Assembly: GCA_026990595.1 (NCBI GenBank)
Contig: JALXCZ010000008.1
Coordinates: 62,001 to 126,000, forward strand
Source of the DNA: Sulfurovum sp.
GTDB lineage: Bacteria > Campylobacterota > Campylobacteria > Campylobacterales > Sulfurovaceae
Length of the DNA stretch: 64,000 nt
Direction of reading: 5' to 3'
Part shown: in pieces, positions 8,749-62,788 of the stretch
Layout of the letters: each line of letters begins with the position of its first letter
How positions within the stretch are numbered: the stretch's first letter is position 1
Notes under the pieces: generated by a model
Seen by the model: only the letters and a program-made list of their open reading frames with translations
The model's database searches: none
What the model was told of the DNA's origin: nothing
Translations under genes and position numbers: made by a program

Positions 8749-8812
8749 GTAGGGGCAGACCCAAGTGTCTGCCCAAGAGACTAAGAGGATAGACACATAG
8801 GTCTATCCCTAC
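8749..8812. repeat. REP pair, variant B, between hpf and recG; supplies the recG stop codon
   Basis: Unit 1 (8749-8774, plus) is GTAGGG-GCAGAC, six bases, GTCTGC-CC. Unit 2 (8787-8812, minus) is GTAGGG-ATAGAC, six bases, GTCTAT-CC. They face each other with the GTAG ends outward and a 12-base spacer. The second unit changes GC to AT in one arm and GC to AT in the other, so the stem is preserved. TAG of the minus-strand GTAG (8811-8809) is the stop codon of recG. The pair sits between convergent genes and may end transcription from both sides, although no T-run follows. Confidence 0.85.
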
Positions 8813-10611
8813 GATATTTTAATTCTATTTTTAGCTCTAGCAACCACTTCTTCATCCTCCCCCATATCTAACCACTTGAACCGTTGACCGCTCTGGATCG
8901 TTCCATCGAGTATATCGCCGCTGTCACGGAATTTCAGATCGAGTTTTGCAATATCAAATCCATTAGTGGTTTGACAAAACTGCGTAAGGCGTTCATTGGC
9001 TGGGGAATTGCTGTAGAGGTAACACCAGCTCTTCAAACCGTTACGCCCTACCCTTCCTCTGAGCTGATGCAGCGTAGCCAATCCTAAGCGTTCTGCACCA
9101 ACGATGACAATAAGTGTAAGCCGAGGCAGAGAGATACCTACTTCCACTACCGTTGTAGCCAGTAAAATATCTCCTTTTTCTCTAAACTCCAGCAACACTT
9201 CCTCTTTTTGCTTGTCTTTTCCGTGGGTAACATAGACATTGTCAAACTTCTCTTCCCAAAACCCTCTGCTCTCTTCCAGTGACTGATAAGGTACTTCTGT
9301 GCTCTCTTCCACCAATGGGTAGATAATGAGCACCTGATGTTTTTTTGCTATTTCCTCTTTAACATGTGTCAACAGATTTGGGAAATCCTGTTTGGAGATA
9401 GTTCGGGTCAAAACCTCTCTCTCAAAAGGTGTGGTAGTAATAAGGCTGACATCAAGCAGTTCAGACTCCATCATTGCCTGGGTTCTTGGTATGGGCGTAG
9501 CGGAAAATTGTAAATAGTGTGGCTTTTTTTCATCCCCACCAGCCAAGGCTTCCAGACTGGCACGCTGTTTCGTACCAAAACGATGCTGTTCATCTACCAT
9601 TACAAGACTTGCCTGGGGAAGATCTTCTTTGTAGAGTAACGCATGGGTACCAATGATAAAATCTGCTTCCAAATAATCACCCTCATCCTTACCCTGCATG
9701 ACCAACGCAATATTCACCTCTTTTGGCAAATACTTACAGGCTTCTTCATACAGTTGTAAAGCAAGGAGTGACGTAGGTGCCATAAGTATGCTCTTATGCG
9801 GCAGTGCCATCATTACCGAAGCCAGGATCACCATCGTCTTCCCTGAACCCACATCTCCTACCACCATACGCTTGGCAGCTTTATCTTCACGTGAAAGATC
9901 TTTTTGAATAGCTTCTATCACAGTTTTCTGCTCATCGGTCAGTGTAAAGGGTAAATGCTCTACAAAAGGTTTAATATCGCCATGTAATGCCTTTAGTGCA
10001 GGGAAATCAACCTTTTTTCCCCGCAGTTTCTTCAAATGGTTAAACGCTTCTACAAACTTCAGTACTGCGATGAAATCTGGTTTAAAGCTGCCGTTTTCAT
10101 ATACTTCTTCCATACTTTTTGGAAAGTGTATATGCATAAGTGTTGCTACCTCTTTGGAGTCAAGCCCCTCATTAAAAAGATTTCTCTCTGTAACATAAAG
10201 CTCTACAAGAGAAGCGATCTCACTCTCCTTGAGTACGGTTTTGTATTTGGGAGTGATCTTGCCTATCTGCCTAATAGACTTTGGCTGAGACATTTGAAGA
10301 TAGCCTTTGTACTCTTCGAGTTTTCCCTGTATGACATGTGACGTTCCCACTTCAAAAAGTTTATGATGGTAGGGAGTGACACGAAAGAACATAGAAGAGA
10401 GCCGTCTGCCTGACTGTGTCAGATGAAAGGTTACCCGAAGCTTACCCTGATACACAGAGCTGTCTACAACCTTTGCTTCGAGTGTATTGACCTTGCCCAG
10501 CGTCAACGTTGTTGAAAGCGTGGTATCGTTATAGGAAGCAGGGATAATGAGAGCAAGATCAAGCAAAGAGTATATTTTGAGTTTCTTGAACAGCTGTTTT
10601 GCTTCTTCCAT
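8809..10611 (-). CDS. recG: ATP-dependent DNA helicase RecG
   Basis: This 600-residue superfamily 2 helicase reverses stalled replication forks and branch-migrates Holliday junctions. An OB-fold wedge region lies at about 40-115, Walker A VGDVGSGKT at 251-259, the DEQH box at 340-343, and helicase C motifs (TTVVEVGISLPR, HQLRGRVGR) toward the end. It is about 90 residues shorter than E. coli RecG, as is usual in Campylobacterota. GGAAG precedes the ATG. The last codons are followed directly by a TAG that belongs to a REP element, so the C-terminus (IKIS) may have been set by that insertion. Confidence 0.95.
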   Translation of the reverse strand: MEEAKQLFKKLKIYSLLDLALIIPASYNDTTLSTTLTLGKVNTLEAKVVDSSVYQGKLRVTFHLTQSGRRLSSMFFRVTPYHHKLFEVGTSHVIQGKLEEYKGYLQMSQPKSIRQIGKITPKYKTVLKESEIASLVELYVTERNLFNEGLDSKEVATLMHIHFPKSMEEVYENGSFKPDFIAVLKFVEAFNHLKKLRGKKVDFPALKALHGDIKPFVEHLPFTLTDEQKTVIEAIQKDLSREDKAAKRMVVGDVGSGKTMVILASVMMALPHKSILMAPTSLLALQLYEEACKYLPKEVNIALVMQGKDEGDYLEADFIIGTHALLYKEDLPQASLVMVDEQHRFGTKQRASLEALAGGDEKKPHYLQFSATPIPRTQAMMESELLDVSLITTTPFEREVLTRTISKQDFPNLLTHVKEEIAKKHQVLIIYPLVEESTEVPYQSLEESRGFWEEKFDNVYVTHGKDKQKEEVLLEFREKGDILLATTVVEVGISLPRLTLIVIVGAERLGLATLHQLRGRVGRNGLKSWCYLYSNSPANERLTQFCQTTNGFDIAKLDLKFRDSGDILDGTIQSGQRFKWLDMGEDEEVVARAKNRIKIS

Positions 10612-10696: not shown

Positions 10697-10842
10697 GTAG
10701 GGTGTTGTCCCATGACAACACCAAAAATTCAAATAACAATAAAATAATTTTTATAAATACATAGCTTTGGTGTTGTAAGGGTATAAGCATCTAAAATGCA
10801 ATGCAAGCGAAGCACTAAATGCTGAGTCGTACAACACCCTAC
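10697..10842. repeat. REP pair, variant A, with a 48-base insert in one loop
   Basis: Unit 1 (10697-10722, plus) is GTAGGG-TGTTGT, loop CCCATG, ACAACA-CC. Unit 2 (10769-10842, minus) has the same two arms, but its loop is about 54 bases instead of six. The extra bases contain an imperfect palindrome of their own (AGCATTTAGTGC against GCATTTTAGATGCT). GTAG ends face outward. The 46-base spacer is A/T-rich and holds nothing else recognisable. The pair separates the M16 gene (stop at 10849) from recG. Confidence 0.85.
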
Positions 10843-10848
10843 CAAATA

Positions 10849-12135
10849 TTATTTTTTCTTCGTCACAATCGCAAATGAAAGTTCAGTCAACTCTTTATGC
10901 GACTCAATAAACGCATTCATCTCTTCAAGTGTAACAGATTCTATTTTCTTTAACTGCTCTTTGGTAAAACCAAGTGGTCTGCCATAGTAGTATTCGTTAT
11001 AGGCACGGCTGAGTCTTTGGGAAAGTGTTTCGGTTCTTAAAGGTTCACTGCCTACCAAAAACTCTTTGGCAGCTTTAAGCTCCTCTGCCGTGATCCCCTT
11101 AGCCACAAAATCATCCACAACTTTCTGCACCAATGCTTTGGCTTCATCCTGTGTACTTAGTTTCGTTTGCAGATATCCGCTCAAATACGATGCTGATTTG
11201 GTACGTCTAAGTGCAGAATAAGCTCCATAGGTCAAACCTCTTTTGACTCGTATCTCTTCCATCAAACGGCTTCCAAACCCTGCACCGCCAAGCAGATACT
11301 CTGCAATCTTTGCTTTATACTGGTCTTTTTCTTTATAGGAATAGTCAAACGGTGCACCAAAATAAATGTATGCCTGCTGTGTATCTTCAGCAATATACTT
11401 TGTCTCTTTTTTATCAGACACTTTTACCTCTTTTAGAGGTTTTACAGTCACTTTGGGAAGCAGTGGCAAAATCTCTTTAAGATATTTTTCTGCCTCATCC
11501 AATGAGATATCCCCGCCTGTGACTGCAATAACATTGGTATAACCTAAATGTGTTGTAATAAAATGTTTAATATCTTCAAGAGAAATAGACTCCACACTCT
11601 GCACTGTACCATCATAAGGACGTCCGAGTGCTGCACCTTTAAAAAGCATCTCTCTGAGTTTTGTCGCTGCGAGATAATCAAAATCACTCTCTTTTTGTTT
11701 CAGCCATCCTATCTTTTGACGTTTGACCTGTGCCAATGCTTCCTTACTATAATTAGGATCTTTAAGTAACTCCTTAAATCTCTCTATGGCATAAGGAAAT
11801 TCACTTTTAAGTGCTGAAACTTCCAGTACAAAACTCTCTCTGCCTACATGTGCTCCAAGCTCTACTGCATGTGCATCCAGCTTCTCTGCAAATCCAACAC
11901 TGCCGTCTTTACTTGTACCTTCATTAAGAAGTTTTGCCGACATATCTGCCAAACCATCTTTAGTGTTACTCAAATGCCCTGCATTTTTAAATACCAGCTG
12001 TAGCGAGACAATCGGTACAAAATTCCCTGTCTCAAAGACTACCGGTACTTTTGTATCTTTGATCTGTATCTCTTTTACTGTTTCTGCCATCAATAATCCT
12101 TGTAATAATACACATAATAAAATAATTTTTTTCAT
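10849..12135 (-). CDS. M16-family peptidase homologue without the zinc-binding motif
   Basis: A 428-residue periplasmic protein with signal peptide MKKIILLCVLLQGLLMAE. It has two M16 repeats. The N-terminal one lacks the HxxEH zinc site (GLADMSAKLLNEG at that place). The C-terminal one keeps the R/Y substrate-binding element (RVKRGLTYGAYS). M16B enzymes of this kind work as pairs in which only one partner binds zinc, so this is probably the non-catalytic subunit; the partner is not in the window. The ATG at 12135 is preferred over one seven codons upstream because it has a GAGAAGG site and begins the signal peptide. It follows mqnC, an order also known in Helicobacter. Confidence 0.82.
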   Translation of the reverse strand: MKKIILLCVLLQGLLMAETVKEIQIKDTKVPVVFETGNFVPIVSLQLVFKNAGHLSNTKDGLADMSAKLLNEGTSKDGSVGFAEKLDAHAVELGAHVGRESFVLEVSALKSEFPYAIERFKELLKDPNYSKEALAQVKRQKIGWLKQKESDFDYLAATKLREMLFKGAALGRPYDGTVQSVESISLEDIKHFITTHLGYTNVIAVTGGDISLDEAEKYLKEILPLLPKVTVKPLKEVKVSDKKETKYIAEDTQQAYIYFGAPFDYSYKEKDQYKAKIAEYLLGGAGFGSRLMEEIRVKRGLTYGAYSALRRTKSASYLSGYLQTKLSTQDEAKALVQKVVDDFVAKGITAEELKAAKEFLVGSEPLRTETLSQRLSRAYNEYYYGRPLGFTKEQLKKIESVTLEEMNAFIESHKELTELSFAIVTKKK

Positions 12136-12220
12136 ATTTGCCTTCTCATTAATCACACAAATGTGTGTCTTGTCGTGGTGAACGCCCAGGCTAAACCATA
12201 AGGTAATTTAATCAAAAAGA

Positions 12221-13282
12221 TTAATACCGTTCCAAGATCTCATATGCCGTATTGCGTTTTGCAGGGTTCTCTCCCACATCACGGATCAACTCTATCATCT
12301 CATTTTGGTTCATAGAATTGGCTGCACCTGCAGCAGAGACCACATTCTCTTCCATCATGGTCGAACCAAGATCATTCGCTCCAAAAAGCAGTGCCATCTG
12401 ACCGATGTAACTTCCCTGGGTAACCCATGAACTTTGAATATTGGGTACATTGTCCAAAAAGAGTCTGGCTACTGCCAGGTAACGCAGATATTGATTTGGT
12501 GTGCTTCTGGTGATTGTAGGAAGTTCCCGTTTGAGCTGCGTATTGTCACTTTGGTAAGACCACATAATAAAGGCTCTGAATCCACCTGTCTCGTCTTGCA
12601 GCTGTCGTACAAGGTCAAAATGTTCTACGATCTCACGTGTACTCTCTACTGTGCCGTACATCATCGTTGCTGTAGACTTGATGCCCAGTTTGTGCGCTTC
12701 TCTGTGAACTTCCAGCCAAGTATCTTTATCGAGCTTTTTAGGAGCAATAATATCTCTTACTCTATCGGAGAGTATTTCTGCACCTGCTCCAGGGATGGAA
12801 CTCAGTCCTTTGGCTTTTAGACGTGCTAAAACTTCACTGATACCCAGTTTGGAACGCTGCGCGATATAGTCTATTTCAATCGCAGAAAAACCGTGAATGG
12901 TCACTTGCGGATATTTGCTGTGGATATGTTCTACCAGATCTTCATACCACTCTATCTCAAGTTTGGGGTGTACCCCACCCTGAAAAAGTATCTGTGTACC
13001 GCCGATAGCAACAAGTTCATCTATTTTTGCATCTATTTCATCAAAAGTCAGGATGTACGCATCTTCTTTTTTCTCATGGGTATAAAAGGCACAGAATTTG
13101 CAGTCTACCCAACAAATATTGGTGTAGTTGATGTTCCTGTCCACCACAAAAGTAGTGACCCCTTTGGGGTGCATCTCTTTTTTGCGTGCAAGTGCCATTT
13201 TACCCAGAGTTTTAAGGTCAGCATTCTCTATGAGTTCTATGGCTTCTTCAATCGTCATACGTTTTGTCATATTTGCAGTCAT
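12221..13282 (-). CDS. mqnC: Dehypoxanthine futalosine cyclase (radical SAM), menaquinone biosynthesis
   Basis: This 353-residue enzyme cyclises dehypoxanthine futalosine in the futalosine route to menaquinone. The radical SAM cluster cysteines are C57-x3-C61-x2-C64 (CWVDCKFC). GGTQILFQGGVHP and the C-terminal SSWVTQG and GANDLGSTMMEENVV segments match the MqnC/MqnE/CofH group. Its length and close match to the cyclase, rather than aminofutalosine synthase, favour MqnC. GGGGT lies five bases upstream of the ATG, right beside a REP unit. It probably shares a transcript with nusB upstream and the M16 gene downstream. Confidence 0.92.
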   Translation of the reverse strand: MTANMTKRMTIEEAIELIENADLKTLGKMALARKKEMHPKGVTTFVVDRNINYTNICWVDCKFCAFYTHEKKEDAYILTFDEIDAKIDELVAIGGTQILFQGGVHPKLEIEWYEDLVEHIHSKYPQVTIHGFSAIEIDYIAQRSKLGISEVLARLKAKGLSSIPGAGAEILSDRVRDIIAPKKLDKDTWLEVHREAHKLGIKSTATMMYGTVESTREIVEHFDLVRQLQDETGGFRAFIMWSYQSDNTQLKRELPTITRSTPNQYLRYLAVARLFLDNVPNIQSSWVTQGSYIGQMALLFGANDLGSTMMEENVVSAAGAANSMNQNEMIELIRDVGENPAKRNTAYEILERY

Positions 13283-13293
13283 TTTTTACCCCC

Positions 13294-13366
13294 GTAGGGT
13301 GTTGTGCCCCACAACACCAAATAGTTTTAATTTCCAACAGCGTGTTGTAAGGGTACAACACCCTAC
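13294..13366. repeat. REP pair, variant A, between nusB and mqnC; supplies the nusB stop codon
   Basis: Unit 1 (13294-13318, plus) is GTAGGG-TGTTGT, loop GCCCC, ACAACA-CC. Unit 2 (13341-13366, minus) is the same with one mismatch in the outer arm. GTAG ends face outward across a 22-base spacer. The minus-strand TAG at 13365-13363 is the stop codon of nusB. The other end lies 11 bases upstream of the mqnC start. Confidence 0.87.
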
Positions 13367-14292: not shown

Positions 14293-14318
14293 GGTGTTGT
14301 GAGAGCACAACACCCTAC
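14293..14318 (-). repeat. Single REP unit, variant A, between kdsA and ribH
   Basis: On the minus strand it reads GTAGGG-TGTTGT, loop GCTCTC, ACAACA-CC. It starts 10 bases after the kdsA stop and ends 19 bases before the ribH start. This is the only isolated intergenic unit in the window. Confidence 0.87.
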
Positions 14319-62713: not shown

Positions 62714-62788
62714 GGTGTTGTACCCTTACAACACCACATTGATGTATGAATTTTATTAAATCGGTGTTGTCAGGAGACAACACCCTAC
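62710..62788. repeat. REP pair, variant A, between hisH and hisA; supplies the hisH stop codon
   Basis: Unit 1 (62710-62735, plus) is GTAGGG-TGTTGT, loop ACCCTT, ACAACA-CC. Unit 2 (62763-62788, minus) has the same arms with loop CTCCTG. GTAG ends face outward across a 27-base spacer. TAG at 62711-62713 ends hisH. The pair ends 11 bases before the hisA ATG and two bases before its AAGGA site. Confidence 0.88.

Follow-up and report, generated by a model that had tools for sequence, protein, structure and literature searches.

Introduction

Most random insertions in compact bacterial genomes harm genes. The described elements that come nearest in behaviour to the one analysed here are the Rickettsia palindromic elements (RPEs), which are reported to be short palindromic repeats that occur in unrelated genes, many of them in frame and with a conserved peptide (PMC10969869). 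A second body of relevant work concerns REPs. One report describes the coexistence of GTAG and CGTC repeats in a Sulfurovum, the insertion of REPs (as dimers) within other palindromes in three species, and the occurrence of REPs at the N-termini of ORFs, where many were suggested to be non-coding (PMC3733652). REPs can themselves be targets, and the insertion sequences IS1397, IS621, ISKpn1, ISPpu9 and ISPpu10 are reported to land inside REP palindromes (PMC1525189). The nesting of palindromes is already known, but in those three species the REP is inside, whereas at the locus described below it is outside.

Here, we analyze a window of 64,000 nucleotides from a Sulfurovum sp. genome (assembly GCA_026990595.1, contig JALXCZ010000008.1), in which a 48-bp element with two hairpins, hereafter the core, occupies the loop of a REP. 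The outer unit resembles the GTAG REP/REPIN/RAYT systems in its GTAG head, its palindrome, the head-out doublets, and a Y1 transposase gene that is flanked by such repeats. The core differs from these systems in the lack of a GTAG end (none was seen at either end in the alignments), in its stems of only 4 bases, and in the lack of a transposase gene beside it. Many free cores end in TTGTC, and TGTC is a reported variant of the CGTC tag, for which CCTC can also stand; however, the core stems are 4 bp long compared with 8–9 bp in CGTC REPs, inspection by eye revealed no CCA tail, and the core was not classed as a CGTC REP. With the REP-targeting insertion sequences it shares the presence of mobile DNA inside a REP, but those carry transposase genes, whereas the core is 48 bp long, is free of genes, and has REPs as only one of its homes. 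Like a MITE, it is a short dispersed insertion without genes of its own, although neither clear terminal inverted repeats nor a clear target duplication was found, and the three Y1 transposase loci of the genome showed no parent insertion sequence. The likeness to RPEs lies in behaviour: an in-frame insertion of the same kind is found in one RecG protein. The differences are the length (47–48 bp versus about 150 bp), the bacterial phylum, and the sites occupied, because the core often lies behind start codons with its own Shine-Dalgarno (SD)-like sequence and ATG, and also lies in REP loops. In the open-licence literature we found no description of this core or of a palindrome that brings along a ribosome-binding site and a start codon. 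To our knowledge, the mechanism by which RPEs move is unsolved.

Results

A doublet of REPs oriented heads-out fills the spacer between the 3' end of a gene that we take to encode an M16 peptidase-like protein (10849–12156, minus strand) and the presumed recG gene (8809–10611, minus strand). The partner unit of the doublet (10697–10722, plus strand) has the layout GTAGGGTGTTGT-CCCATG-ACAACACC, with the GTAG head at 10697–10700, the arms at 10701–10708 and 10715–10722, and the loop CCCATG; the related genome G065 has a matching unit with an unchanged loop. The other unit (10769–10842, minus strand) comprises 74 bases, with the GTAG head at 10842–10839, the 5' arm at 10838–10831, and the 3' arm at 10776–10769. 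Read on the minus strand from 10842 to 10769, its layout is GTAGGGTGTTGT-[48 bases]-ACCCTT-ACAACACC; on the plus strand, the arms are GGTGTTGT (10769–10776) and ACAACACC (10831–10838), and CTAC at 10839–10842 corresponds to GTAG on the minus strand. The six-base loop ACCCTT (10777–10782, minus strand; AAGGGT on the plus strand) is identical in the empty unit of G065. The initial annotation had noted about 48 extra bases between two retained arms, and there are exactly 48 (10783–10830), which run ATAAG...GAGTCGT on the plus strand, the sense strand of the core. Since junction bases are shared, the ends can be placed only to within a few bases.

The outer unit belongs to an abundant family, in which a GTAG head lies beside a palindrome of 20–40 bp in many copies. 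The window contains five units with the two arms 0–30 bases apart, compared with 0.00 expected from shuffles, and two 8-base arms with this spacing occur at 76 places in the whole genome, many of them paired as doublets. Other GTAG-family members in the window are a pair upstream of mqnC (13298–13362), a single unit beside ribH/kdsA-like genes (14293–14314), and the hisH pair (62714–62784). A search of the genome with the long-loop unit of the window retrieved three full-length long-loop copies (C11:3914, C30:11864, and C45:33709) in addition to the window unit on C8, as well as a long-loop copy with an internal deletion (C32:49733) and a truncated copy (C13:27505).

Comparison with orthologous loci revealed filled and empty forms of the same REPs. 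In the orthologous spacer of G065, which is 79% identical over 1 kb, the same REP pair is present and the 74-base window unit is represented by the 26-base unit GTAGGGTGTTGTACCCTTACAACACC with an unfilled loop. Two further pairs are clean, with the loop unchanged in both: a 74-base unit in G015 (L066) corresponds to a 26-base unit of the window genome (L018, C5), and a 73-base unit in G008 (L067) to another 26-base unit (L022, C11). The reciprocal situation was also observed, with a filled locus in G065 (L117) and an empty one in the window genome (L008), but the loops of the two differ. In the pairs L065/L046 and L202/L020, the REPs of the window genome are damaged. Altogether, 21 nested or nested-looking loci were compared with the window genome, which has an unfilled orthologous REP at five of them (L066, L067, L117, L065, and L202), a filled one at one, and no REP at two (L069 and L206); one locus was recG and 12 had no usable orthologue. 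These comparisons point to insertion into a pre-existing six-base REP loop as the probable origin of the long loop. The suggestion of the initial annotation that one small palindrome had entered another was thus borne out, both by the G065 locus and by the separate family to which the inner piece belongs. We consider it very probable that the extra piece is a copy of a dispersed element, probably selfish, that was inserted into such a loop.

Across its copies the core is 47–48 bp long and has, on the sense strand (plus in the window), the structure A(C/T)AAG, a hairpin with a TAAA or CTAAA loop, CARTRCARGSRAGG, a hairpin with a CTAAA loop, and GARTCKTA. The inner piece had been read as one imperfect palindrome, but two adjacent hairpins describe it better. 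In the window copy these are hp2 (10787–10799, plus strand; GCAT-CTAAA-ATGC) and hp1 (10811–10823, plus strand; AGCA-CTAAA-TGCT). Four-base stems are fully paired, with G-T allowed, in 175 (hp1) and 172 (hp2) of 201 deduplicated copies, and on the other strand the loop is TTTAG in 192 of the 201 for hp1, and TTTA or TTTAG in 164 for hp2. For the two-hairpin structure, an analysis of 57 copies from a single length class gave pairing in 95.8% of the cells compared with 86.5% in shuffles, and 38 cells are double-changed compared with 7.8, a value that none of 500 shuffles reached; nearly all of these cells come from hp2. Considered separately, hp2 has 29 fully paired among 56 distinct arm pairs, far above the shuffles (mean 3.45, maximum 12), in a test that picked the best-scoring hp2 position, while hp1 alone, with nine of 20, is within the range of 2000 shuffles (mean 5.1, maximum 10). 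The covariation support for the two-hairpin reading is therefore clear for hp2 and weak for hp1. The hp1 region of gene-start copies holds the SD motif and the ATG; the window copy has an ATG at 10819–10821, without a good SD motif.

Folded as RNA, the minus strand of the long-loop REP is more stable than 199 of 200 shuffles (z −2.83), and the plus strand has a z value of −1.78, with 10 of 200 shuffles folding equally well. Four gene-start copies folded no more stably than shuffles, and the idea of a stable RNA leader was dropped. An Rfam scan of eight loci returned a single miRNA match (E 0.58), which was below the gathering score and is at chance level. A fixed coding repeat was also rejected, as 47- and 48-bp forms coexist, and for the same reason the frame of the core is not conserved in general. 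An integron attC site was discarded in the absence of an R-box pattern by eye.

No target duplication, which the initial annotation had proposed to look for at the junction, could be separated from the element's own end, as the element itself begins with A(C/T)AA. The junction bases that are shared are ACAA/TTGT at REP junctions and TA in the window copy, and the start-codon copies have no consistent repeat. A mariner-like TA duplication fits the window copy but fails for REPs with C loops and for start copies of the form ATG|ATAAG. A simple insertion of the IS200/IS605 type after a conserved TAC was dropped, because the empty site that it predicts, GTTGTACCCATG, does not match the empty unit of the window genome, GTTGTCCCATG.

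Beyond the locus itself, the inner palindrome is not unique, and its family is spread across the genus. With a cutoff of E <= 0.001, the core model retrieved 254 matches, which are distributed over 46 of the 78 genus genomes. A pattern for short-loop REPs, which uses 7-base arms and yields zero to three chance matches per genome in the control, was present in 50 of the 78. Both were found in 33 genomes, only the core in 13, only the REP pattern in 17 (10 of which have at least five matches to it), and neither in 15, and the copy numbers of the two are uncorrelated across the 78 genomes (Spearman 0.12, p 0.29). Each species is represented by a single genome, in many cases a draft. Of 298 genomes sampled from the order, 14 match the core, eight of them in four other genera. 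An exact 22-base core pattern retrieved 98 stretches in named records; among the 80 matches listed, most are from Sulfurovum, Sulfurimonas, Helicobacteraceae, or other Epsilonproteobacteria/Campylobacterota, and one is from Patescibacteria. The window genome has 11 core matches at E <= 5, which include, besides the REP-nested copies, gene-start copies at C52:62338 (E 4.9e-6) and C49:67111 (E 0.0025). By eye, decayed copies were recognized at the apparent starts of surE (L239, C11:45001; E 0.08) and bioB (L242, C44:5521; E 0.86), and clear copies are present at surE in G027 and at bioB in G033.

Script rules, which make some errors, sorted the 201 deduplicated copies into 93 at gene starts, 19 in REPs, 35 of a larger form, and 54 others. 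Because searches for the element itself, some of them with the exact 22-base pattern, supplied the copies, these proportions are biased and do not represent a census. The loop of a REP as landing site, as the initial annotation had suggested, holds for a minority of the copies; in this sample, gene starts account for more copies than any other class. The 19 REP-nested copies follow from a strict rule, and decayed ones were left among the others (for example, L070, L142, L202, L226, and L230). A second REP family, TCGGGGTG-CCCT-CACCCCGA, carries the core in its loop three times: G093 has two of these units and an uncultured Sulfurovum the third (L278), and only L278 retains the GTAG head. By eye, the core also lies inside the loop of another core, at C49:67111 of the window genome and in G001 and G075. 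At C49:67111 (L238), the nested cores are located at the start of a 113-aa ORF, presumably Sui1-like, and a 27-codon leader is open through both. The 35 copies of the larger form, which has an outer stem, were counted by a coarse rule. In several of them (L091/L093, L095, L098, L101, L122, and others) there are flanking hairpins, one of which resembles a terminator, and L091 reads as a 34-residue ORF on the other strand. Tandem arrays of the core with a period of 47 were found at L170 (G091), L227 (G015), and L308, by eye at gene ends for the first two and at a gene start for the third. Further sites are between genes and, apparently by eye, at gene ends.

One interior insertion into a protein gene, which makes for a weak test of RPE-like behaviour, was found in the recG orthologue of G076, where the core is in frame after residue 361 of the window protein (between bases 9529 and 9528). 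The two RecG proteins differ by a single 16-residue gap, and 537 of 596 aligned residues are identical.

In the 93 gene-start copies, an ORF of at least 100 aa begins at the ATG of the element. An upstream ATG, GTG, or TTG opens a leader that ends within 14 bases of this ATG in 82 of the 93, and 11 have no leader. The leaders are 9–19 codons long, with 16 codons in 40 cases. The same test identified leaders for none of the 19 REP copies, three of the 35 large-form copies, and 13 of the 54 others. GGAGG precedes the ATG in 51 of the 93 start copies, in none of the 19 REP and 35 large-form copies, and in 12 of the 54 others, a difference between classes that is confounded with lineage and core subtype; GAGG was found in 27 of the 93, and 15 lack even GAGG. 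The 93 copies have 82 different eight-residue N-terminal strings, a figure that the number of genes cannot exceed, and they do not equal 93 events, since shared descent inflates the counts. The class holds false members, because L278 is counted in it although it is REP-nested. The genes with start copies are those that we take to encode RimO, MqnC, RlmN, SurE, MurC, BioB, CarA, HemE, PurA, and others.

Two genes next to the window locus illustrate the start copies. The M16 peptidase-like gene has its likely native ATG at 12135–12133 and begins ...GGCAAAT ATG AAAAAAATTATTTTATT in the window. In its orthologues in G027 and G100 the core lies directly behind the start codon, ...GGTTTTAT ATG [ACAAG...CGAATCTTA] AGAAAATAATTTTATT (core in brackets), and the predicted N-terminus is MPNLKKIILL compared with MKKIILL in the window genome. 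Similarly, the gene at 12221–13282 (minus strand), which we take to be mqnC-like, has no core at its start in the window, CTACGGGGGTAAAAA ATG ACTGCAAATATGACAAAACGTATG, whereas in its orthologues in G010, G082, and G027 the core immediately follows the start codon; the start in G010 reads CTACAGGGGTTAAA ATG [ATAAG...GAGTCGTA] CAAAGAACATGACACAACGTATG. In G010, a native ATG slightly downstream could be the real start of mqnC.

Discussion

On the best reading of these data, the core is a short palindromic element of a new, RPE-like family, probably selfish, which persists at start codons because it brings a start of its own. The core, which probably moved as a unit, would land in many places and be kept where the harm is small. 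At gene starts, the native initiation signal would stay intact and direct the reading of a short leader, most often of 16 codons, for example MTRIKIQYREALNAES. This leader would stop near a second start codon, an ATG in frame with the gene that the element supplies along with an SD-like motif (GAGG or GGAGG) some six bases upstream, and reading of the gene would go on from there, giving the protein a new N-terminus, such as MPSRK, MPNLK, MLSRK, and others. Because the leader lengths vary, survival after insertion would explain the bias towards starts better than one fixed target. We lean, with some reserve, towards the view that in Sulfurovum, Sulfurimonas, and their relatives the core is selfish DNA specialised for start codons, with translation from the native start producing the leader, usually of 13–19 codons, and restarting at the element's own SD motif and ATG by termination-reinitiation, so that even essential genes can be colonised. 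If true, such a portable translation start would show how tiny selfish DNA persists where the damage should peak and would account for the N-terminal extensions that recur in core enzymes of this group; in annotation, the starts of many of their genes would then be ambiguous. The copies in REP loops provide countable filled and empty sites for studying the movement of tiny palindromic elements.

Three other explanations have to be weighed, two of which concern the copies in REPs. The core might have entered one REP only once, and the composite might then have spread by means of the REP's own transposase (RAYT) or by recombination between REPs. Such a history would account for the common insertion point and orientation of the REP-nested copies seen and for the one core subtype that many of them share. 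A Y1 transposase gene flanked by REP doublets of this family is present in the genome, and L069 and L206, at which the window genome has no REP, could be fresh composites. Nevertheless, the three orthologous filled/empty pairs with unchanged loops, the different six-base loops of several filled copies, and the differing core subtypes inside REPs (L193 and L230) argue against this history, and as the whole story the spread of a composite is at odds with the second REP family, which is filled at the corresponding point. We therefore regard it as rather unlikely. Conversely, the long loop might be ancestral, as the initial annotation had allowed, and the short REPs might have arisen by deletion through slippage between the TTGT repeats at the junctions. 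Direct TTGT/ACAA repeats do flank the core in many REPs, and the core at C32:49733 has been deleted internally; but the genome has 76 short places and four full long ones, the core occurs without the REP pattern in 13 genomes and the pattern without the core in 17, and the same core is found in the other REP family, in recG, and at start codons. This makes the deletion scenario highly improbable.

The third explanation concerns the start copies, which could represent a conserved, non-selfish translational control element that consists of a leader peptide and a hairpin with the SD motif and ATG. The SD-like sequence and the ATG are indeed in or at one hairpin, the leader ORF overlaps the start, and the stems covary. 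However, the genes, as named here, have no common theme, the presence of the core at the same gene varies between genomes, near-identical cores reside within REP loops and recG, and the four copies tried fold as RNA at the level of shuffles. A control element is thus clearly improbable.

The core motif is absent from all three Y1 transposase loci of the window genome. Among near-complete genomes with the core, seven (G003, G020, G027, G029, G065, G091, and G100) gave no match to the Y1 transposase at E <= 0.001; G065 has 37 REP pattern matches nonetheless, so past transposase activity may have taken place there. With 31 Y1 transposase matches, G063 ranks first among the 78 genus genomes (the next has 16), but it has no core match. 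In the window genome, the Y1 transposase gene at C52:55526 (L061; PF01797, E 1.9e-8) is likely, judging from its sequence context, to be the cognate RAYT of the GTAG REPs, because doublets of these REPs flank it on both sides. The other two Y1 transposase genes, at C48:102520–105720 (L062) and C41:1910–5176 (L063), are each flanked by another inverted repeat, of the type TTCCCACG...CGTGGGAA and a similar type GTTCCCATCCG...GATGGGAAC, which suggests a second REP-like family in this genome.
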